Positions 5,738-47,948 of a stretch of 64,000 nucleotides of DNA are shown one piece after another; position 1 is the first letter of the stretch; every line of letters begins with the position of its first letter. The DNA is from Naumannella cuiyingiana (GTDB lineage Bacteria; Actinomycetota; Actinomycetes; Propionibacteriales; Propionibacteriaceae). The notes beneath the pieces were generated by a model. It was not told the DNA's origin, searched no databases, and worked only from the letters and a program-made list of their open reading frames with translations. Where the stretch lies: positions 992,001 through 1,056,000 of the forward strand of contig NZ_JACBZS010000001.1 in the NCBI RefSeq assembly GCF_013408305.1, read 5' to 3'. The translations under genes and the position numbers were made by a program.

Positions 5738-6648
5738 CCGCACTACGGTCGGGGATCGTGGCGCTGGCCGTGCTCATGATCACGCTGGCAGCGGGCCCTA
5801 TGGCAGTAGGTGCGCCGACGGATGAGACTCCGCCACCTAGCGCTCAGCCAACGGAAGAACGGGCGAATAGCTACGGCTACTCCGATGTTGAACTTGACAT
5901 CAGAACCAAGGATGAGCGGGAGAGCAACTCATCGAATGCTCAGACGAACGGCACCGGGAGTGTGGGCCGCGGCCCCGCCCCCGATCCTTGGGCGGGTTTC
6001 TCCAAGGAGGAGCGCGAGGTTGCCGAGCAGACGGGTGGCGTACCGAGCGCGAACGGCAACGGCGAGATGGTTCACCTGTCGGTGTGCCTGGATGACCCGA
6101 CCGTGTCCGTGCTGTGCCCGAACTATCCAGGCGGAGGGGACGGCGCGCCGCCCGCGCCGACCATCGCGCCCGAGGAAGCCGCCCGTCGTGCGGTCGCGAA
6201 GATCCGCCTGACCGCCAAGCCGCCGGGGCTGAGCCCGGACTGGAACAAGAACAAATACAAGATGCTGGCCGTCGGCTTCCCGGTCTGGGTGCACGCCGAC
6301 CCGGATTCACTCACCCCCGTCAACGACTCCCAAAACATCGAAGGCCTCGGCGTCTCACTCGACGCCGCCAAACCGAACATCGCGGTCAAGATGGGCGACG
6401 GCACCACCCTGCGCTGCGCGCTGAAAGGCCGCCCGTTCAACCATCGCGACGAACCGGGCAGCGACGGCCCCTGCTCGCACCGCTACCAGAAAATGTCCCC
6501 ACCCGACGGCTACACCGTCACCGCCATCTACACCTGGGACGTCGCCTGGACCGCCGGCGGACAATCCGGCGTGATCACCGTGAGCAACCAGGCCAGCACC
6601 CAGATCCCCATCGGCGAACTCCAGGCGCTCATCACCGCCCCACGCTGA
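5731..6648 (+). CDS. Secreted protein of unknown function
   Basis: 305 residues. Residues 1-28 form a Sec signal peptide ending near VGAPT, followed by a low-complexity, Glu/Ser/Asn-rich segment to about 110. The C-terminal half (from about 145) begins ARRAVAKIRLTAKPPGLSP and holds the conserved-looking AVGFPVWVHADPDSL and YTWDVAWTAGGQSG; two Cys pairs are possible. A GFPVWVHA-type domain recurs in actinobacterial exported proteins that follow a lipoprotein gene, but I know no function. The start overlaps the stop of the lipoprotein gene by seven bases. Confidence 0.6.
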   Translation: MLTALRSGIVALAVLMITLAAGPMAVGAPTDETPPPSAQPTEERANSYGYSDVELDIRTKDERESNSSNAQTNGTGSVGRGPAPDPWAGFSKEEREVAEQTGGVPSANGNGEMVHLSVCLDDPTVSVLCPNYPGGGDGAPPAPTIAPEEAARRAVAKIRLTAKPPGLSPDWNKNKYKMLAVGFPVWVHADPDSLTPVNDSQNIEGLGVSLDAAKPNIAVKMGDGTTLRCALKGRPFNHRDEPGSDGPCSHRYQKMSPPDGYTVTAIYTWDVAWTAGGQSGVITVSNQASTQIPIGELQALITAPR

Positions 6649-6698
6649 CCACCCCCAACCACAGCCGGCCCCCAAGCAGCGCCCGCCGCGCACAAGCA

Positions 6699-6747
6699 TG
6701 TGCGATTTGTCGTCATCCCCGCGACCAAGATGACCACAAAACGCACA
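6699..6747. repeat. Imperfect inverted repeat, 18-bp arms
   Basis: TGTGCGATTTGTCGTCAT (6699-6716) and the reverse complement of 6730-6747 (TGTGCGTTTTGTGGTCAT) match at 16 of 18 positions around a 13-base spacer. It is AT-richer than its surroundings. It may be a terminator for the 6648 gene or a protein-binding palindrome; an arm-like sequence recurs upstream of ngcF at 21673-21690 (15 of 18). Confidence 0.55.
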
Positions 6748-7029
6748 CTCGTACCCGATGAGATTGCCGACCGCCCACCTCGCCGAGCGTGAGGCACTCG
6801 CTACCCAGAACTCTCCCACGTCATCGACATCGTGGCGCTCCCCGATCGCCCCACCGCTCAAGAACCTCAGGCGCGGCAACCGCCGATGAGCCAGCCGACC
6901 GTCACCCCGTCAGGTCCGACTTGCCACCGTGATCGCCCGGCAGCAGCGCGCTCCCACCAGTTCCCGGGCGATCCGGGGTCGGCGCAATCGATCGCCGCAC
7001 CCCGCTCTCCAGATCCCTCCCGCAGTCAA

Positions 7030-7056
7030 GCCCGCTCTGCGGCCCGCAGAGCGGGC
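7030..7056. terminator. Hairpin terminator downstream of tsaD
   Basis: GCCCGCTCTGCGG pairs with CCGCAGAGCGGGC around a minimal loop, giving a stem of about 12 bp. It lies between the convergent 5731-6648 gene and tsaD, 35 bases after the tsaD stop. On the minus strand it is followed only by a weak T pair, so termination by structure is inference. Confidence 0.55.
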
Positions 7057-7090
7057 ATAACTGCGGAAACAATCGGAGGCGAGGGGATGA

Positions 7091-8134
7091 TCAGACCAGG
7101 ACGCGGGAGACGGGCAGGCCCGAGTCGGCGCCGAACTCCAGACCCGAGGGCGGCAGCCCAGCCGCGACGACCTCCGCCCCGAGCGCGGCGATCATGGCGC
7201 CGTTGTCGGTGCACAGGCCCGGGCGCGGACGGCGTACCCCGATCCCGGCCGCGCCCGCACGCTCGGCGAGCAGCGAACGCAGCCGCGAGTTCGCCGCCAC
7301 CCCACCGCCGATCACCAGATCCGTCACGCCCTCGGCCCGGCACGCATCGACCGCCTTGGCCGTCAACACATCCGCGACCGCCTCCTGGAAGCTCGCCGCC
7401 ACATTGGCCACCGGAACCTCCCGGCCCTCCACCTCCGCGATCTCGACCCAGCGCGCCACCGCCGTCTTCAGCCCGGAGAACGAGAAGTCGAAGCGATGCC
7501 GTTCACGATCACGCGGCGAGGTCAGCCCGCGCGGGAACCGGATCGCCCGCGGATCGCCCCCGGCCGCCGCCTTGTCGATCACCGGCCCGCCGGGGTACGC
7601 CAACCCCAACACCCGCGCCACCTTGTCATAGGCCTCGCCCGCCGCATCATCGATCGTCGCCCCGATCGGCGTGATCGACCTCGCGATGTCGTCCACCCGC
7701 AGCAGCGACGTGTGCCCACCGGAAACCAGCAGCGCCAACGACCGCTCCGGCAACGGACCATGATCAAGAATGTCCACCGCGACATGGCCGGCCAGGTGGT
7801 TCACCCCGTAGAGCGGCTTGTTCGTCGCGTACGCCAACGACTTCGCCGCCCCGATACCGACCACCAGCGCGCCCATCAGCCCCGGTCCGGCTGTGACGGC
7901 AATCCCGTCCAACTCGCCAAGATCGACATCGGCCGCCGCCAGCGCCCGGCGCAGCGTCGGCTGCATCGCCAGCAGATGCGCCCGCGACGCGATCTCCGGC
8001 ACCACACCGCCGAACCGGACATGTTCGTCCACCGACGATGCCACCTCGTGCGCCAGCAGCTCTCCCCCGCGGACGACCCCGACGCCCGTCTCGTCACACG
8101 AGGTCTCGATCCCGAGGATCAGCGGCCCGCTCAT
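7091..8134 (-). CDS. tsaD: tRNA N6-adenosine threonylcarbamoyltransferase TsaD
   Basis: 347 residues, the family length. TsaD transfers threonylcarbamoyl from TC-AMP to A37 of ANN-decoding tRNAs, working with TsaB and TsaE. The N-terminus [15 protein letters not shown] is the ASKHA phosphate motif, metal-binding His113 and His117 are in NHLAGHVAV, and [10 protein letters not shown] and [12 protein letters not shown] complete the fold. The start is set by a 4-base ATGA overlap with rimI. Gene order tsaE-tsaB-rimI-tsaD is the usual actinobacterial one; groESL, which often follows, is not present downstream. Confidence 0.97.
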
Positions 8135-26046: not shown

Positions 26047-28037
26047 CACGGGCCCCAGTTGAAGTGCTGGTAGTCCCTGCCCGGGTTCCAGCGCCCGCCC
26101 CAGAACCAGCCGCGGCTCTCGAACCCGCGGGTCAGCGAGCTGCCCGTCCACAACATGCCCTGTGAGGTGATCTTGCGGTTGAGTTGACCGTCCTGGACGT
26201 AGCCTCGGCCGTTCGACGGCCACCAGGTGCCGTTCTTGTCCCGGAACGGGTTCTGCACGGTGTTCGTGTCGACCGCGGTGCCGTAGGAGTGCGGCGAGAC
26301 CGCCTGCGGGTTGCCGACCACCGACCGGCAGTTGAAGCCCGAGGTGTTGTTCGCGACCATCTGGTCGGGGTCGTTGCCGCGCCACACGTTCGGGTTGTCC
26401 ATCCGGGCCACCGGGAAGCGGGCCTTGAATGCGTCGTTGAACGCGTCCACGACGCGCTGGGCGTAGCTGTCGCGGATGATCATCTGGCCGCGATGGATCC
26501 GGCCGTCGTAGCCCCAGTAGTTCATGTCGATGGTGCGCAGGCTGCCCGGACCCACCGGGCAGCCGGAGCGGTAGGTGTAGCGCACGTCGGAGCTGGAGGT
26601 ACGCCGGATGGTTGCGTTCTGCCGGTACTCGGTCGAGGCGCGCGAGCCGTCCCAGGTGATCCGCCCGTACTGGAAGTCCTGGCGGCACTTCCCGTCGCGG
26701 CACCACTCGCTGCCGGTCGGGAAGCCGAGCAGCCCACGCTCCCAGCCCTGCGCGGCCCAGGCCTTCTCGATCGCCCCGACGACCGGCCGGGCGCCGGTCC
26801 TGGGAGTCCAGTAGATCGATCCGCCGGTGAACTTCTGGTAGCAGCCGCGGTCCTTCAGGGTGCACCGCTCGCCGGTGGTCGGGAAGCCGAGCCGGCCGCG
26901 CTCCCAGCCCTGGGCGCCCCAGGCCGCGGCGATGCCGCCCCAGATCGGCTGGGCCCCGGTCCTGGCGGTCCAGTAGATCGATCCGCCGGTGAACTTCTGG
27001 TAGCAGCCGCGGTCCTTCAACGTGCAGCTCTCCGCGCTGATCGGGAAGCCGAGCCGGCCGCGCTCCCAGCCAAGCCCGGCCCAGGTATTGCGGATCGAGC
27101 CCCAGACGGGGTGCGCGCCCGTGCGGGGCGACCAGTAGATGTCGCCGCCGGCGAACTTCTGGTAGCAGCCGCCGTCCTTCAGAGTGCACCGCTCACCCGT
27201 CGTCGGGTAGCCGAGCCGGCCGCGCTCATAACCGAGGTTGGCGTGGGTGATCCCGATGTTGCCCCAGGTGGCCCACGCGCCGGTCGCGGAACTCCACAGC
27301 ACCAGGCCGCCGCGGAACCGCTGGGAGCAGCCGCCGTCGCGCAGGCCGCACAGCTCGTCGGCGATCGGGTATCCCAGGCGCCCCTGTTCCCAGCGCAGGT
27401 CCGCGTACCGGCCGAGGAGCTGGTTGGTCACCGCGTGGACGCCGGCATCGCGCTGGTCGTAGATGATCGCCTTGGTGAAGCGCTGCAGGCAGCCGCCGTC
27501 GGCGAGGCCGCAACTGCGTTCGTCGGTCGGGAAGCCGGCGCGGGCGAGCCCGACCCGGTCGAAGGCGGCCAGCATCCGCGCTTCGATGATCTTGGCGCCC
27601 GTCGCCTGCGACCAGTAGATCGCGCCGTTGCGGTAGCGCGCCATCCGCCCGCCGGGCACCGCGGTCTCCGCCTTGGTCACCGCGCCGAGCGGCCCGGCGG
27701 CGCCGCCGGAGGCCCGGTACCGCGCGGCGATCGGGGTCTCCGCGGCCAGCTCGTGGCGTTCGACGCTCGGCGTGGCGCTGGGACTCAGGCTAGCGCTGGA
27801 ACTCGGGGTCTCGGTGGGGCTCGGGGTCTCGGTGGGGGTGGCGGACGGGGTCGTCGGCCTCGGCGAGGCGGTCGCCTCGCCGGTCGGCGGCGGCGTGGCC
27901 CCCGGCGTCACGCCGGCCGATGGGCTCGGCGATGGGCTCGGTGTCGGGGGCGCGCTCGGCGGCTGCGCGTACGCCGTCGCGCCCACCGCGGTCCAGGCGA
28001 CCACCGCCGCCACCATCAGGCCGACAACCCTGCGCAT
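26046..28037 (-). CDS. Secreted LGFP-repeat protein with C-terminal M15 (VanY-like) peptidase domain
   Basis: 663 residues. A signal peptide (1-24) is followed by a Ser/Thr/Pro-rich linker to about 95. Then come about seven LGFP-type repeats of 54 residues (ERGRLGFPT, then C-x5-GGC or C-x5-RGC, then QKFTGGSIYW); each has a Cys pair. The C-terminal 160 residues carry SPHSYGTAVDTN, the SxHxxGxAxD zinc signature of M15 D-Ala-D-Ala carboxypeptidases, and YQHFNWGP at the end gives the last His. It probably binds the cell envelope by its repeats and trims peptidoglycan. GAGGGGAG lies five bases before the ATG; the leader is part of a 107-bp duplication. Confidence 0.85.
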   Translation of the reverse strand: MRRVVGLMVAAVVAWTAVGATAYAQPPSAPPTPSPSPSPSAGVTPGATPPPTGEATASPRPTTPSATPTETPSPTETPSSSASLSPSATPSVERHELAAETPIAARYRASGGAAGPLGAVTKAETAVPGGRMARYRNGAIYWSQATGAKIIEARMLAAFDRVGLARAGFPTDERSCGLADGGCLQRFTKAIIYDQRDAGVHAVTNQLLGRYADLRWEQGRLGYPIADELCGLRDGGCSQRFRGGLVLWSSATGAWATWGNIGITHANLGYERGRLGYPTTGERCTLKDGGCYQKFAGGDIYWSPRTGAHPVWGSIRNTWAGLGWERGRLGFPISAESCTLKDRGCYQKFTGGSIYWTARTGAQPIWGGIAAAWGAQGWERGRLGFPTTGERCTLKDRGCYQKFTGGSIYWTPRTGARPVVGAIEKAWAAQGWERGLLGFPTGSEWCRDGKCRQDFQYGRITWDGSRASTEYRQNATIRRTSSSDVRYTYRSGCPVGPGSLRTIDMNYWGYDGRIHRGQMIIRDSYAQRVVDAFNDAFKARFPVARMDNPNVWRGNDPDQMVANNTSGFNCRSVVGNPQAVSPHSYGTAVDTNTVQNPFRDKNGTWWPSNGRGYVQDGQLNRKITSQGMLWTGSSLTRGFESRGWFWGGRWNPGRDYQHFNWGP
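26700..27640 (-). repeat. 162-bp in-frame repeats inside the LGFP gene
   Basis: Segments starting with CCAGTAGAT at 26808, 26970 and 27132 recur exactly 162 bases apart, i.e. 54 codons. The first two share about 45 identical bases in a row (through the CCGCCGGTGAACTTCTGGTA region), implying recent duplication or gene conversion; flanking copies to about 27640 are more diverged. Confidence 0.85.
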
Positions 28038-30266: not shown

Positions 30267-32270
30267 GTGACCGGAACGGGGGATGTGTTCGACGGCGACG
30301 ACCCGGCACCGACTGGTGACGGATCTCGTTCGTCGAACGGTCGCCGCACCGACGACGTGATGCAGGCCCCGGGGACCGGTGGAGAACCGGGACCCGGGGC
30401 CGAGCCCGATGCTGCCCTGCTCGCCGAGGTGCGGGCGGGCCGAAGCCATGCCTACGGCGAACTCTGGGAGCGCTACGCCCCCGCTGCCCGCCGCCTGGCG
30501 CGCCGGTTGCGGCCGTCCGGAGATGCCGATGACCTGGTCAGCGAGTCCTATCTGCGGGTGCTGCGCTCCATCCGTGCGGGCAACGGCCCACAGGACAACT
30601 TCGCCGCCTATCTGTACGCCACGCTGCGCCGGCTGGCCATCGACGAGACCCGTTCGCCGCGCTCCCGGGTGGTCCCGACCGACCAGTCCGACGATCTGGA
30701 CGCGGCGCATCCGTCGGCCGAGGAACTGTTCGCCGAGCTTGCCGACCAGCGCACCGCCGTCGCGGCCTGGCACAGTCTCCCGTCCGAGACCCGCGACCTG
30801 TTGTGGCGAGCGGTCGTGGACCAGCAGCGTCCGACCGCGATCGCCCGGCAACTGGGGGTCAGCGCCAACGGCGTCTCCTCGCGCGTCCGGCGCGCCAAGG
30901 AGCGGCTGCGCGAGGCGTACCTGACCGAACACGCGCGGACCGCGCGGATCCCGGCCTGCCGCCCGGTCCGACCGCTGCTGGCGCGCTACGTCCGCGACGC
31001 CCTGGGCCCCGCGAAGCGCCGCATGGTCGATGAGCACCTCGACACCTGCGCCGACTGCGGGCGCGCCCTGATCGTGCTGCAGACCATCGACAAGGCAATC
31101 GTGGCCGTGATCGCACCGGTCGTCGGAGCCGGCGCGTGGGCCGCCGCCGATGCCCTGGCCGGCACGGCGCCCGTGGCTCGCGCGCAGGGGAACCCGGGAC
31201 CCGGTGACCGGGGGTGGGGCAGGCAGCGAGACGGCGGCCGAGAACACGGCGGCCGGGCCACCCACTCCGTTGCGCGCATCCTGGTGGCGATGCTCGCCAT
31301 CGCGGTCGCGGCCGCGATGGCGTACGCGCTGAGCCGACCCGAGGCCCCTGCGCCCACCGGGTTCGGACCGGCCGCGGGGACCGGCAACGGTGCCGGCGCA
31401 CCCCCGCCGGCAGATCCACCCCCGCCCCCGCCCCCTGCGGGTCCGCCGGCTCCTCCGATGGGCCCGCCCGCTCCCCCGATGAGCCCACCCGGCCCCGACG
31501 ACGGCGCCCCGGCCGGCCCGCCAACCCCCGGACCGGCGTCCCCGGGACCCACGCTTGCCACACCGAAGGCCAATGCGGTCCGCCGACCGCGTCCCGCGCC
31601 GACCGTCGCCCCCACCCCCGCGCGCCCTCCCGTCGGGCCGACGGCGCTGCCGTCACCACGCGCGCCGGAACCCAGCCCGTCGCTGCGCTCGGTCTCGCCG
31701 AAACCCAACCCGTCGATGCGCTCGGTCCCGCCGGAACCGAGGAGCCCCGCCACGTCCACCCCGACACCGAGGCCTACCGCCACCCCCAGCCCGACTCCCA
31801 CCCCCAGCCCGACTCTGACCTCGAGCCCGACTCTGACCTCGAGCCCGACTCTGACCCCCAGCCCGACTCTGACCCCCAGCGCGTCACCGAGCCCGGCCGG
31901 CACGCCCACCCCCACACCGACACCAACACCCACACCGAGCCCAACACCGAGCCCGACACCGACACCGAGCCCGGCCCCCTCCGTGTGGACGATGGAGATC
32001 GAGATGAGCGAAGACCTCCCGGTGGGCTACGTGGCGGCGCTCACCGTGCCGGAGGGTTATACGTTGACCTCGGTTCGTGACCTCCACTACGGCGAGCCCA
32101 CGGAGCACCTGGAGGTGCCCGGGCGGACATTCGTCGATGCCGTGCAGCCGGGGCGGCTGCTGATCCGGGGAACGCGGGAGCCCGGCGCCGAGCCGGGCTC
32201 GCTCACCGCCGATCTGCGCAGCTACGGCGGCCGGGAGCTCGCGGGCAGCGGCAGCTACCCGATCCCCTGA
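30267..32270 (+). CDS. ECF-type sigma factor fused to zinc finger, membrane helix and proline-rich exported stalk
   Basis: 667 residues. Sigma region 2 is at about 60-130 (DADDLVSESYLRVLRS), region 4 at 160-217 (TAIARQLGVSANGVSSRVRRAKERL). A zf-HC2 anti-sigma-like zinc motif follows, His257-x3-Cys261-x2-Cys264 (EHLDTCADC). One membrane helix at about 335-355 leads to a 215-residue Pro/Ser/Thr stalk and a final beta-rich domain of about 90 residues (MEIEMSEDLPVGYVAALTVPEGY). The layout resembles actinobacterial ECF groups with a built-in zinc finger and membrane anchor (ECF52/53-like, from memory). It would place a sigma factor at the membrane, released by an outside signal. The GTG at 30267 lacks a strong ribosome site. 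Confidence 0.8.
   Translation: MTGTGDVFDGDDPAPTGDGSRSSNGRRTDDVMQAPGTGGEPGPGAEPDAALLAEVRAGRSHAYGELWERYAPAARRLARRLRPSGDADDLVSESYLRVLRSIRAGNGPQDNFAAYLYATLRRLAIDETRSPRSRVVPTDQSDDLDAAHPSAEELFAELADQRTAVAAWHSLPSETRDLLWRAVVDQQRPTAIARQLGVSANGVSSRVRRAKERLREAYLTEHARTARIPACRPVRPLLARYVRDALGPAKRRMVDEHLDTCADCGRALIVLQTIDKAIVAVIAPVVGAGAWAAADALAGTAPVARAQGNPGPGDRGWGRQRDGGREHGGRATHSVARILVAMLAIAVAAAMAYALSRPEAPAPTGFGPAAGTGNGAGAPPPADPPPPPPPAGPPAPPMGPPAPPMSPPGPDDGAPAGPPTPGPASPGPTLATPKANAVRRPRPAPTVAPTPARPPVGPTALPSPRAPEPSPSLRSVSPKPNPSMRSVPPEPRSPATSTPTPRPTATPSPTPTPSPTLTSSPTLTSSPTLTPSPTLTPSASPSPAGTPTPTPTPTPTPSPTPSPTPTPSPAPSVWTMEIEMSEDLPVGYVAALTVPEGYTLTSVRDLHYGEPTEHLEVPGRTFVDAVQPGRLLIRGTREPGAEPGSLTADLRSYGGRELAGSGSYPIP
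31788..31877 (+). repeat. 18-bp tandem repeat in the stalk of the sigma-factor fusion
   Basis: Five units of AGCCCGACTCTGACCTCG or close variants follow one another, coding for the six-residue unit SPTLTS or SPTLTP. A second, six-base-based tract (CCGACA/CCCACA) follows at about 31914-31980. Unit gain or loss keeps the frame and would change stalk length only. Confidence 0.85.
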
Positions 32271-45834: not shown

Positions 45835-45948
45835 TCAGCCCTGGCGCTGCTTGTGGCGCGGGTTCTCGCAGATCACCATCACGCGACCGTGCCGGCGGAT
45901 CACCTTGCACTTGTCGCAGATCCTCTTGACGCTCGGCTGAACCTTCAT
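45835..45948 (-). CDS. rpmJ: 50S ribosomal protein L36 (zinc-binding form)
   Basis: 37 residues: [20 protein letters not shown] and the rest. Cys11, Cys14, Cys27 and His32 (CDKC and VICENPRH) are the zinc ligands, so this is the zinc-containing paralogue. AAAGAGAG is close upstream of the ATG. It lies 71 bases after infA. Confidence 0.96.
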
Positions 45949-46019
45949 CGAGCTCTCTTTTCGATCTGGCCCCGGGCAGGCGTGCACCCGTCGGGGAGTT
46001 GATGATTTGTTGACCCCGG

Positions 46020-46241
46020 TCACCTGTGCCGGTAGACGATGCGGCCGCGGTTCAGGTCATAGGCGGAGACTTCGACAACCACCCGGTCCGACGGAAGGAT
46101 CCGGATGTAGTGCTGGCGCATCTTGCCGCTGATGGTGGCAAGCACCTTGTGGCCGTTGCTCAGCTCGACGCGGAATGTCGCGTTGGGCAGGGCCTCGACC
46201 ACGGTTCCCTCAAGCTCGAGGACGCCTTCCTTCTTTGCCAT
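46020..46241 (-). CDS. infA: Translation initiation factor IF-1
   Basis: 73 residues with a single S1/OB fold: [21 protein letters not shown] and [22 protein letters not shown]-type core (here [13 protein letters not shown]). It is the first gene of infA-rpmJ-rpsM-rpsK-rpsD-rpoA-rplQ. TAGGGAGC is five bases upstream of the ATG, and the promoter is at 46313-46341. Confidence 0.97.
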
Positions 46242-46312
46242 TGCTCCCTAAACTGTTCGCTCGGAACTCCTGAATGCGGACATGCATCACCCACACGGGT
46301 GACCGACGCTCT

Positions 46313-46341
46313 ACTCTAGTGCCCGATCCCCCGCAGCCCAA
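46313..46341 (-). promoter_or_regulatory. Promoter of the infA operon
   Basis: TTGGGC (46336-46341) is 17 bases from TAGAGT (46313-46318) on the minus strand. Transcription would start near 46306, giving a leader of about 65 bases. The -35 box abuts the repeat array that begins at about 46376. Confidence 0.6.
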
Positions 46342-46435
46342 ATCGTCGTACGCCGGTCCGGCCCAGGCCGGTCGAGCCCGTCGAGCCCCAGGCCGGTCGA
46401 GCCTGTCGAGACCCCCGCCGAGCGAGCCTGACGCC

Positions 46436-46551
46436 GGTAGAGCCCGTCGAGAGCCCCCGCCGATCGCCGAAATCGACCACTCGCCACGATTCCGGCCACC
46501 ACACCACGCCCAAGCCCGCCCAAACCCCGACCAGTGGTCACTTTCGGCGCC
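46436..46551. repeat. Array module 1
   Basis: Palindrome GGTAGAGCCCGTCGAGA, then GACCACTCGCCA, a C-rich run (46509-46528) and GACCAGTGGTCACTTTCGGCGCC. It is the most diverged copy. On the minus strand the C run reads as four G tracts. Confidence 0.85.
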
Positions 46552-46638
46552 AGGTTTCGACGGCGCCAGGTCTCGACGGCGGGAGATCTCGACGGCGGGA
46601 GGGCTCGGCGGCGCGAGGGCTCGACCTCGACCAACGCC

Positions 46639-46753
46639 GGTCGAGCTTGTCGAGACCCCCGCCGAGCGCCAAAACCGACCACTCGCCAGGGTTTTGGCGA
46701 CCACACCACGCCCAAACCCGCCCGAACCCCGACCAGTGGTCACTTTCGGCGCG
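46639..46753. repeat. Array module 2
   Basis: GGTCGAGCTTGTCGAGACCC palindrome, CCAAAACCGACCACTCGCCA, an inner hairpin TCGCCA/TGGCGA, the C-rich run at 46711-46730 and GACCAGTGGTCACTTTCG. GACCACT and AGTGGTC form an inverted pair across the module. Confidence 0.88.
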
Positions 46754-46850
46754 AGGTTTCGGCGGCTCGAGGTCTCGACGGCGCGAGGTTTCGGCGGCGG
46801 GAGATCTCGGCGGCGGGAGATCTCGACGGCGCGAGGCCTCGGCGGCGCTC

Positions 46851-46965
46851 GGTCCAGCCTGTCGAGACCCCCGCCGAGCGCCAAAACCGACCACTCGCCA
46901 GGGTTTCGGCCACCACCTGGCGCCCAAACCCGCCCAAACCCCGACCAGTGGTCACTTTCGGCGCG
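46851..46965. repeat. Array module 3
   Basis: GGTCCAGCCTGTCGAGACCC, then the same core as module 2 with a changed middle (CCACCACCTGGCGCCC), and the C-rich run at 46923-46942. Over most of its length it matches module 2 closely, suggesting recent duplication. Confidence 0.88.
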
Positions 46966-47066
46966 AGGGCTCAGCGGCGGGAGGTCTCGACGACGCGAGG
47001 TCTCGAGGTCTCGACCGCGGGAGATCTCGACGGCGCTCGTTCCTCGCCTGCTCGAGCAGCGCTCGA

Positions 47067-47948
47067 CTACTTGACCGCGCCCATCGCCAGGCCGCGGACG
47101 AGCCGCTTCTGGGCCAGCCAGCCGGCCAGGATCACGGGCACGATGGCAATGGTCACCGCGGCGCTCAGTACCGCGAGGAACTGGCCGCGGCCGTCGACGA
47201 ACGAGCCGAGGAACGGCGGCGTGGTCATCGCGGCGACCGAGGTCAGCAGCAGCGCCAGGAAGTACTCGTTCCAGGCGAAGATGAAGCAGATCAGCGCGGC
47301 CGCCGCGGCGCCCGGCGCCACGATCGGGAACGCGATCCGCCACAGCTCGCGCCAGTAGGTCGCCCCGTCCACCTGGGCCGCCTCGACGATCGCGGCCGGC
47401 ACCTCCTCGAAGAAGGAGCGCATCATCCAGATCGCCAGCGGCAGGTTGATCCCGACGTAGAGGATGCCGAGCACGGTCAGGTTGTCCAGCAGCCCGAACT
47501 GCCGCAGCAGCAAGAAGATCGGGATGATCACCGCGGCGAACGGCATGAACCGGGTGGAGATCACGAAGAACAATGCATCGGACCACTTCGAGATCCGGCG
47601 TACCGACAGGGCGTACGCCGCCGGGATCGCCAGCGCCATCACCACGATCGTCGAGCCGATCGACACCGCCGCGGAGTTCAGCAGGTACAACCCCATCCCC
47701 CGCTCGAAGACCTCGGCGTACCTGTCCAGGGTCAACGGTGTGTTGATCAACGGCGTCGGGGATGCGGCAGCGGCCTCGGACTTGAACGAGGTGAAGACCG
47801 TCCACAGCACCGGGAAGAAGAACAGGAACACCAGCAGCCAGGTCAGCAGGGTGATCAGCGCTCCGCCGAGCTTGCGGCCGGCGGGCGATCCGCCCCGCCG
47901 GGCCCGCGTCGCCTCGGCGCTGGCTGCGGGTTCGGTCACGGCGCTCAT
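47067..47948 (-). CDS. Carbohydrate ABC transporter permease (MalG/SmoG type)
   Basis: 293 residues, six transmembrane helices. The EAA loop is AAIVEAAQVDGATYWRELWRIAFP (about 190-213), which contacts the ATPase. It is the last gene of a binding protein-permease-permease operon, each overlapping the next by four bases. No ATPase gene follows; the array at 46376-47057 begins right after the stop. The substrate is inferred from the binding protein. Confidence 0.88.
   Translation of the reverse strand: MSAVTEPAASAEATRARRGGSPAGRKLGGALITLLTWLLVFLFFFPVLWTVFTSFKSEAAAASPTPLINTPLTLDRYAEVFERGMGLYLLNSAAVSIGSTIVVMALAIPAAYALSVRRISKWSDALFFVISTRFMPFAAVIIPIFLLLRQFGLLDNLTVLGILYVGINLPLAIWMMRSFFEEVPAAIVEAAQVDGATYWRELWRIAFPIVAPGAAAAALICFIFAWNEYFLALLLTSVAAMTTPPFLGSFVDGRGQFLAVLSAAVTIAIVPVILAGWLAQKRLVRGLAMGAVK

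Follow-up and report, generated by a model that had tools for sequence, protein, structure and literature searches.

The repeat array beside infA

What is the repeat array that lies beside infA in Naumannella cuiyingiana, and what brought it there? A preliminary description of the window (the whole 64,000-nucleotide stretch of DNA analysed here) had recognised three modules separated by tracts of a 16-bp tandem unit and capped by GTCGAG-type palindromes, and tandem-repeat analysis bears out both the modules and the 16-bp tracts between them. The modules are 172-nt copies starting at 46454, 46656 and 46868, at spacings of 202 and 212; modules 2 and 3 are 87% and 77% identical to module 1, respectively, and the 202-bp period scores 786 in Tandem Repeats Finder. 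The palindromes, of 19 nt each, were found at 46395, 46639 and 46851, and the GACCACT/AGTGGTC inverted pairs that had been described are present in all three modules, with arms at 46466/46518, 46668/46720 and 46880/46932. A second proposed inverted repeat, TCGCCA/TGGCGA, is exact in module 2 only. The array also lies where it had been placed, between the stop codon of a sugar-type ABC transporter permease gene and infA, both on the minus strand; the matches of the permease to sugar ABC permease models each fall under the cut-off of the model concerned. The features of the locus are as follows.

about 46362-47035, no strand: whole repeat array (tandem-repeat analysis)
46020-46241, minus strand: infA, downstream of the array (TIGR00008, E 5e-34)
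46395-46413, no strand: GGTCGAGCCTGTCGAGACC palindrome, with a further partial copy at 46362-46399
46466-46548, no strand: inverted doublet 1, made of arm + at 46466-46496, a 21-bp spacer and arm - at 46518-46548 (profile scan)
46545-46625, no strand: 16-bp tandem tract 1 (tandem-repeat analysis)
46639-46657, no strand: GGTCGAGCTTGTCGAGACC palindrome
46668-46750, no strand: inverted doublet 2, made of arm + at 46668-46698, a 21-bp spacer and arm - at 46720-46750 (profile scan)
46747-46848, no strand: 16-bp tandem tract 2 (tandem-repeat analysis)
46851-46869, no strand: GGTCCAGCCTGTCGAGACC palindrome
46880-46962, no strand: inverted doublet 3, made of arm + at 46880-46910, a 21-bp spacer and arm - at 46932-46962 (profile scan)
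46962-47035, no strand: 16/24-bp tandem tract 3 (tandem-repeat analysis)
47067-47909, minus strand: sugar-type ABC transporter permease, 3' part, upstream of the array (best model NF040932, E 2.5e-30, under cut-off)

The core of the array consists of three inverted pairs of a 31-nt arm within tandem-amplified filler. Folded as single-stranded DNA, doublets 1, 2 and 3 give z-scores of -2.6, -3.5 and -2.6, respectively. The sequence YGACCACTSGYC, with at most one mismatch, occurs 15 times in the window, 9 of them inside the array, against 5.9 expected, and 0 of 100 shuffles reach 15. The 16-mers and the GTCGAG palindromes seem to be tandemly amplified sequence that surrounds the element, not its core. 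Palindromes of the GGTCTCGACRRGCTCGACC type number 10 in 218.5 kb of N. cuiyingiana DNA and 0 in the reversed control, in a scan for which most loci had been chosen for holding arms. All ten fall within the window array's locus or arm-holding loci (L190, L192, L194 and L203 included), and they could be either another element or a favoured target. Two other repetitive regions were seen in the window: a 162-bp tandem repeat of 3.3 copies at 26700-27338 (score 638, also with a 324-bp period), and a cluster of 18-, 21- and 33-bp tandem repeats at 31421-31973.

Several functional suggestions in the preliminary description fared less well. It had placed the array close to a -35 box, a claim left without tool support because a consensus scan of 46200-47150 shows no sigma-70 promoter. 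The same scan shows no terminator, and promoter or terminator function of the array, as judged by consensus, was rejected. A known Rfam RNA was rejected as well, as there is no match at gathering score in 45900-47300, and the ideas of an insulator or a source of small RNAs find no backing in either scan. (In four of the nuclease loci described below, Rfam finds RNase P alone.) The array had been called non-coding on the ground that its 16-bp period breaks every frame; that is not literally so, since long ORFs cross the array in several frames, and it is the repetition at the DNA level that argues against coding. The heptamers AGTGGTC/GACCACT are, we assume, half of the DasR dre operator, and their pairing in this array differs.

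A dispersed arm with a constrained spacing

A BLAST search with one module found 53 places in the N. cuiyingiana genome. We built a profile from 46 N. cuiyingiana arms chosen by the core (C/T)GACCACT(C/G)G(C/T)(C/A), a choice that itself makes this core invariant; outside the selection stand GCC at one end of the arm, and GTT and GGC at the other. The aligned unit is 31 nt long, with a consensus that has GCC at its start and GGC at its end. This profile has 102 matches in the genome at E<=1 and 88 at E<=0.01, and the earlier suggestion of a dispersed REP-like element was therefore right. The same description had held that its novelty would fall away if the modules occurred nowhere else and varied as neutral decay in relatives; run on the genome, the search finds arm matches elsewhere. 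When the N. cuiyingiana loci retrieved for holding matches were scanned together with the window, 92 arms were found, against 0 in the reversed sequences.

The distance between neighbouring arms is mostly regular. Among pairs less than 120 bp apart, the left ends are separated by 52 or 53 bp in 52 of 64: 20/20 in '+-' orientation, 12/17 in '++', 20/26 in '--' and 0/1 in '-+'. Compared between loci, the spacers of tandem (direct) pairs have a likeness of 0.342 versus 0.315 when shuffled, the arms themselves reaching 0.751; inverted spacers are somewhat more alike, at 0.478 versus 0.367 shuffled. Because the distance is mostly fixed while the spacer sequences differ, the length of the spacer appears to be constrained more than its sequence, and this would suit proteins bound on one face of the helix. 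Rough gene calls place 18 of 23 arm clusters between genes and 4 over an ORF, the remaining one lacking two neighbours; one of the 'overlaps' arises from a glnA start that was extended too far.

Outside N. cuiyingiana the arm is scarcely found. Among 57 genomes including that of N. cuiyingiana, 7 of the 56 relatives have 1-3 weak profile matches each at E<=0.01. The one in a genome of the same genus (G001) lies inside an ORF by eye, and a genome of the same order (G054) has three, one of which lies between genes among similar inverted motifs. Around position 1500 of locus L098, also from G054, there are inverted GCGAGTGGTC/GACCACTCGC pairs, apparently intergenic, which are possibly a further palindrome family with a similar core. 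A survey of the class, covering 394 genomes at E<=1e-4, found N. cuiyingiana and one single match, inside an ORF by eye, and the 31-nt pattern has 0 occurrences in the GTDB genome_contigs with the N. cuiyingiana genome left out; on these two results a widely shared arm was rejected. Enrichment is confined to the longer arm: the bare 9-mer GACCACTSG is at background in N. cuiyingiana (122 versus 105 backwards), and the 11-mer YGACCACTCGC occurs 54 times versus 6 backwards. Counts of the same 11-mer are 48 versus 9 in G225, a genome of another family, and 4 versus 21 in G303, of the same genus as G225.

A nuclease gene between copies of the arm

Arms are found on both sides of one gene, which lies 1.7 Mb from the array between the genes for NAD+ synthase (nadE) and glutamine synthetase (glnA).

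G000:C1:2733201-2734214: P0001, AbiEi-nuclease fusion, 338-codon ORF with arms on both sides

Upstream of P0001 there are two full arms and a partial one, and downstream there are three arms in the opposite orientation. The N-terminal part of the protein matches PADLOC AbiEi models (2e-6 for P0001; 6e-13 and 6e-17 for its homologs L312 and L254). The C-terminal part resembles REase_MTES_1575/DUF559, with L312 above the cut-off of PF18741 and P0001 below Pfam's cut-off; two paralogs of P0001, L239 and L240, are without any Pfam match at E<=0.1.

A predicted structure of L312, a Phycicoccus homolog, stands in for P0001 (pLDDT 94.9). In this model residues 5-184 resemble the AbiEi antitoxin 6y8q (Z 9.7, rmsd 5.8, 171 aligned; Foldseek E 9e-5), and residues 189-294 resemble the catalytic domain of the homing endonuclease I-Bth0305I, 3r3p (Z 12.2, rmsd 2.4, 96 aligned); the comparison with Vsr, 1cw0, gives Z 9.6. 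Eight residues are invariant in 40 proteins (S201, E204, R208, D237, G251, H254, D264 and R267), among which E, D, H and D presumably match the EDxHD motif. The profile matches and the model point to an AbiEi fold in the N-terminal half, and the model to a Vsr/EDxHD-like catalytic fold with conserved acidic and His residues.

The gene has relatives in many genomes. Homologs of P0001 at E<=1e-10 were found in 153 of 296 Actinomycete genomes, N. cuiyingiana included, with at most 7 candidates scored per genome. In the distant genome G225, where the arm motif forms palindromes and 26-27-bp tandem arrays, a DUF559 gene stands between five motif copies on one side and four on the other. In G303 and G225 we also noticed more DUF559 genes within long palindromes, each of its own sequence (L186, L182 and L174, with best flank scores of 128, 102 and 67, respectively).

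Palindromes beside most of the homologous genes examined

A first look at 30 homolog loci suggested a bracketing pattern. In the test that we applied, the 400 nt upstream of a gene were compared with the 400 nt downstream of it, with a threshold score of 45. The first set comprised 41 loci, hand-picked from the listed homologs together with three N. cuiyingiana genes, mostly on long contigs, and 19 of the 41 were among the 30 seen beforehand. An inverted flank match of at least 45 was found in 26 of these 41 loci versus 0 of 115 control genes from the same stretches, and 2 of 774 sliding windows reached 45. The second set was independent and consisted of the best 80 of 124 relatives, less 4 left out at contig ends, from Nocardioides, Intrasporangium, Phycicoccus, Ornithinimicrobium, Terrabacter, Microlunatus, Kribbella and other genera; here 50 of 76 testable loci had a match in either orientation versus 0 of 120 control genes.

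Taken together, with one locus of the first set dropped under a longer flank rule, 83 of 116 loci have matching repeats (score >=45) versus 3 of 580 mismatched flank pairs, each made up of the upstream flank of one locus and the downstream flank of another, and matching flanks were seen in 0 of 235 control genes from both sets. Because two loci occur in both sets (L259 = L363 and L246 = L383), the 116 loci are 114 distinct ones. The remaining 33 of the 116 fall short of the 45-point threshold. P0001 itself scores 39 inverted and 26 direct, under the threshold, though arms flank the gene. Where the bracketing sequences were inspected, they are mostly palindromes of about 55-90 bp, and some of them, such as that at L240 (-35.9 kcal/mol, z -13.9), fold almost perfectly. 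As judged by these flank comparisons, palindromes that vary in sequence stand on both sides of most of the homologous nuclease genes that we examined in Actinomycetes.

Two further homologs in N. cuiyingiana, at 2507294 and 1240821, are bracketed by two unrelated palindromes, and half of one of these recurs in the window.

7031-7073, minus strand: half-palindrome of a second family (GCGGGCATAACTGCGGAAACAAT), which brackets the AbiEi-nuclease gene at G000:C1:2507294

This copy indicates that at least one more such repeat family has a copy away from its gene. DUF559 genes at large were set aside as the cognate family: PF04480 has 18 matches in 5 of 6 genomes, and 6 of the 17 testable genes have a flank match of at least 45. 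In G001, 1 of 7 PF04480 genes reaches this score, the one that resembles P0001 over 276 residues.

Palindrome class follows the nuclease clade in one genus

Within one family (f23) we classified 14 loci, the retrieved part of those in the homolog survey, 13 of them from a single genus (g72). In this genus, GATCTTGGAG stands on both sides of 7 of 7 genes that encode QYEGDVH-clade proteins, and GATCATGG(A/G)G on both sides of 5 of 6 that encode EYDGDHH-clade proteins; the sixth of these, L250, has its motif upstream only. L248, from another genus of the family, has GATCATGGGC on both sides. The motif of another clade was found at 0 of the 14 loci, and G192 and G240 hold both clades, each paralog with its own palindrome class. 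By sequence comparison, the clade of the nuclease predicts the class of the palindrome in genus g72, and 12 of 13 loci bear this out on both sides.

The closest relative of P0001 that we saw, in G015, has 57-62% amino acid identity. It is bracketed by ACCGCCCACTCG-type cores, one base different from the N. cuiyingiana core ACCGACCACTCG; those upstream form a 51-bp array, and those downstream lie 46-54 bp apart. The reading frame of this homolog (L421, G015:C80) changes at residue 282, from either decay of the gene or a sequencing error.

Dispersal varies from one palindrome to another. Within genus g72, all 12 of 12 genomes have the sequence GTTGATCWTGGAG, in 8-279 copies, against 0 backwards; among the places listed, mainly in G202, G182 and G163, most copies form pairs, at 59 bp in the CTTGGAG class or at 47-48 bp in the CATGGAG class. 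Outside this genus, four palindromes were each sampled in 400 kb, and dispersal was absent or low for 3 of them. That of L278 had no match in G059; that of L243 had no BLAST hit in G250, with no 14-mer match and 1 11-mer match; that of L270 had no exact copy and 1 BLAST place in G068; and that of L269, also in G068, had 6 half-sites, in 2 of 20 stretches. Because sampled palindromes are often without dispersed copies, bracketing appears to be the common state and spreading an occasional one.

Insertion, copying and inversion of the unit

The gene and its palindromes move together. In G001 the nadE-glnA site is empty, with the nadE and glnA matches 101 bp apart instead of 1387, and nadE and glnA are also adjacent in G046 and G043. 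The junctions of the empty site resist alignment at single-base level and gave no sign of a target duplication. G113 has two cassettes at different sites that are 90% identical over 1122 bp, with no likeness elsewhere in the 11-kb stretches compared; in L253 one boundary of the match coincides with the outer end of one palindrome, and the other boundary lies 24 bp beyond the second palindrome. G222 has the cassette in the opposite orientation to that in G113 and G096, at the same site; at another site G113 has it inverted relative to G096, in each case between flanks of about 81-91% identity, the turn falling within the palindromes. Comparison of these sites shows insertion, copying and inversion of the palindrome-gene-palindrome unit; the same-site inversions could be explained by ordinary recombination between inverted repeats. 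Directly past the outer palindrome of the cassette in L253 there is about 1.35 kb of extra DNA (about 5993-7342, G113) that is absent from L263 and L255.

The L312 protein has no relative among 50,697 phage records and one among 72,556 plasmid records, on a chromosome-sized record. In IMG/VR one viral contig encodes a partial relative (40% over query residues 125-217), and because of it the nuclease genes are not strictly chromosomal.

Discussion

To our knowledge, REPINs are the best-described tiny chromosomal palindromes with a dedicated enzyme. The system is like REPIN/RAYT: both have short inverted doublets between genes, a repeat-flanked nuclease gene and repeat-specific genes (PMC3116915 and PMC3733652, in the sections cited), and in N. 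cuiyingiana 20/20 neighbouring '+-' pairs lie at 52/53 bp. The nuclease gene inside its repeats repeats the architecture with a different enzyme, an AbiEi-Vsr-like fusion and not a Y1 HUH transposase. Y1_Tnp (PF01797) has 0 matches in the N. cuiyingiana genome, in a search that was positive in 5 of 14 control genomes, and REPs mobilised by RAYTs were rejected for this genome; the GTAG or CGTC end tag of REPs is likewise absent from the arm consensus. With neither a Y1 transposase nor such a tag, the system is not a member of REPIN/RAYT. TIRtrons, with their TIRYTs, are alike in that long inverted repeats bracket a gene whether or not the repeats form a family, as the cited part of PMC3733652 has it, which recalls the undispersed palindromes seen here; their enzyme is of another class.

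Each half of the protein also has known counterparts. With AbiEi, the antitoxin of a type IV toxin-antitoxin system, it shares the N-terminal DNA-binding fold, and it differs in being fused to a nuclease and in having sites on both sides of its gene and, in some genomes, dispersed. No AbiEii toxin gene lies beside P0001, at this one locus. The C-terminal nuclease fold is that of I-Bth0305I and Vsr; unlike I-Bth0305I, the gene here is free-standing between palindromes, with no sign of an intron or intein. The nuclease domain is also like that of REase_MTES_1575/DUF559, which has been described as a Vsr-family nuclease (PMC3710099), and the relevant sections of that paper do not mention a repeat association. 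Among the matches listed from open-licence PubMed Central, with subscription papers and preprints lying outside, there was no report of palindromes with DUF559, MTES_1575 or AbiEi-nuclease genes.

We suggest, with a probability of roughly 0.7, that three copies of a small non-autonomous palindromic element, tied to the P0001 nuclease, have piled up in tandem to form the array beside infA. The element consists of a pair of inverted 31-nt arms with a 21-bp spacer between them. We infer that the nuclease binds, cuts and, with the help of repair, disseminates it. The AbiEi-type winged helix of one monomer would bind one arm, and pairs of monomers would assemble on arms about five helical turns apart, in phase. 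The Vsr/EDxHD-like nuclease would then cut at or beside a palindrome, and repair from another copy, in a process like homing or gene conversion, would put the whole cassette or a short doublet into new intergenic sites. At the array, unequal recombination between the GTCGAG palindromes and the 16-mers would have turned one insertion into three modules. The layout of the palindromes resembles known binding sites, as far as the relevant part of PMC7319586 describes them: AbiEi binds a pair of 23-bp inverted repeats separated by 3 bp, and Rv2827c binds two pairs with 13 bp between them.

That resemblance can also be read in another way. The palindromes could be operators through which the AbiEi-nuclease regulates itself, as AbiEi and Rv2827c do, with the dispersed copies serving as a regulon or as chromosome-organising sites and their spread being incidental. 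The AbiEi fold of the N-terminal half, the inverted repeats bound by AbiEi and Rv2827c (PMC7319586, same part) and the regular spacing of the arms, which would suit cooperative binding, all agree with this. We nevertheless consider it unlikely. Copies are found both 5' and 3' of the gene, the cassettes are duplicated and inverted, and, unlike a conserved regulon, the arm is missing from the 56 relatives save for 1-3 weak matches in 7 of them.

Alternatively, the nuclease gene could be a passenger that homes into palindromes spread by an unrelated transposase or by replication slippage. Cassettes do sit between palindromes at several sites, and some bracketing palindromes are abundant while others are undispersed. 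It is hard, however, to see a passenger in a gene whose clade is tracked by palindrome class in genus g72, even between paralogs in one genome (G192 and G240), and the sister species G001, with no gene at its nadE-glnA site, has one weak arm match; we regard this explanation as quite improbable.

Very little probability attaches to a defence or addiction device, in which the nuclease would attack DNA that lacks or carries the palindromes and the genomic copies would be decoys or self-marks: P0001, set between nadE and glnA, has no partner gene beside it, against which stand the origin of the AbiEi models in a defence-system library and the occurrence of Vsr-family nuclease domains in conflict systems (PMC3710099, in part). 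Finally, a neutral minisatellite that resembles the dispersed copies through shared low-complexity, GC-rich sequence has the 16-bp and 202-bp tandem structure and the background level of the bare 9-mer in its favour and may hold for the 16-mer filler, but as an account of the arms it is contradicted by 92 matches versus 0 in reversed sequence and by a 394-genome survey (E<=1e-4) that found N. cuiyingiana and one single match, and we give it almost no credence.

Returning to the element and its nuclease, we lean towards the view that AbiEi-Vsr fusions and their cognate palindromes are an unrecognised class of selfish chromosomal element, widespread in Actinomycetes, which moves as a palindrome-gene-palindrome unit and in some lineages has given rise to tens to hundreds of non-autonomous arms. 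We rate the system as new as such within the open-licence literature. If this view is true, a DNA-binding domain of toxin-antitoxin origin and a homing-type nuclease have together made a counterpart of REPIN-RAYT that is independent of it and non-HUH. The REPIN way of life would then have evolved more than once, in two systems that share a layout and have unrelated nucleases. The second system would also give a testable function to a large uncharacterised family of DUF559/MTES_1575-type genes, could account for many of the repeats between genes in high-GC genomes, and would provide proteins with their matching palindromes for the study of how DNA specificity coevolves.
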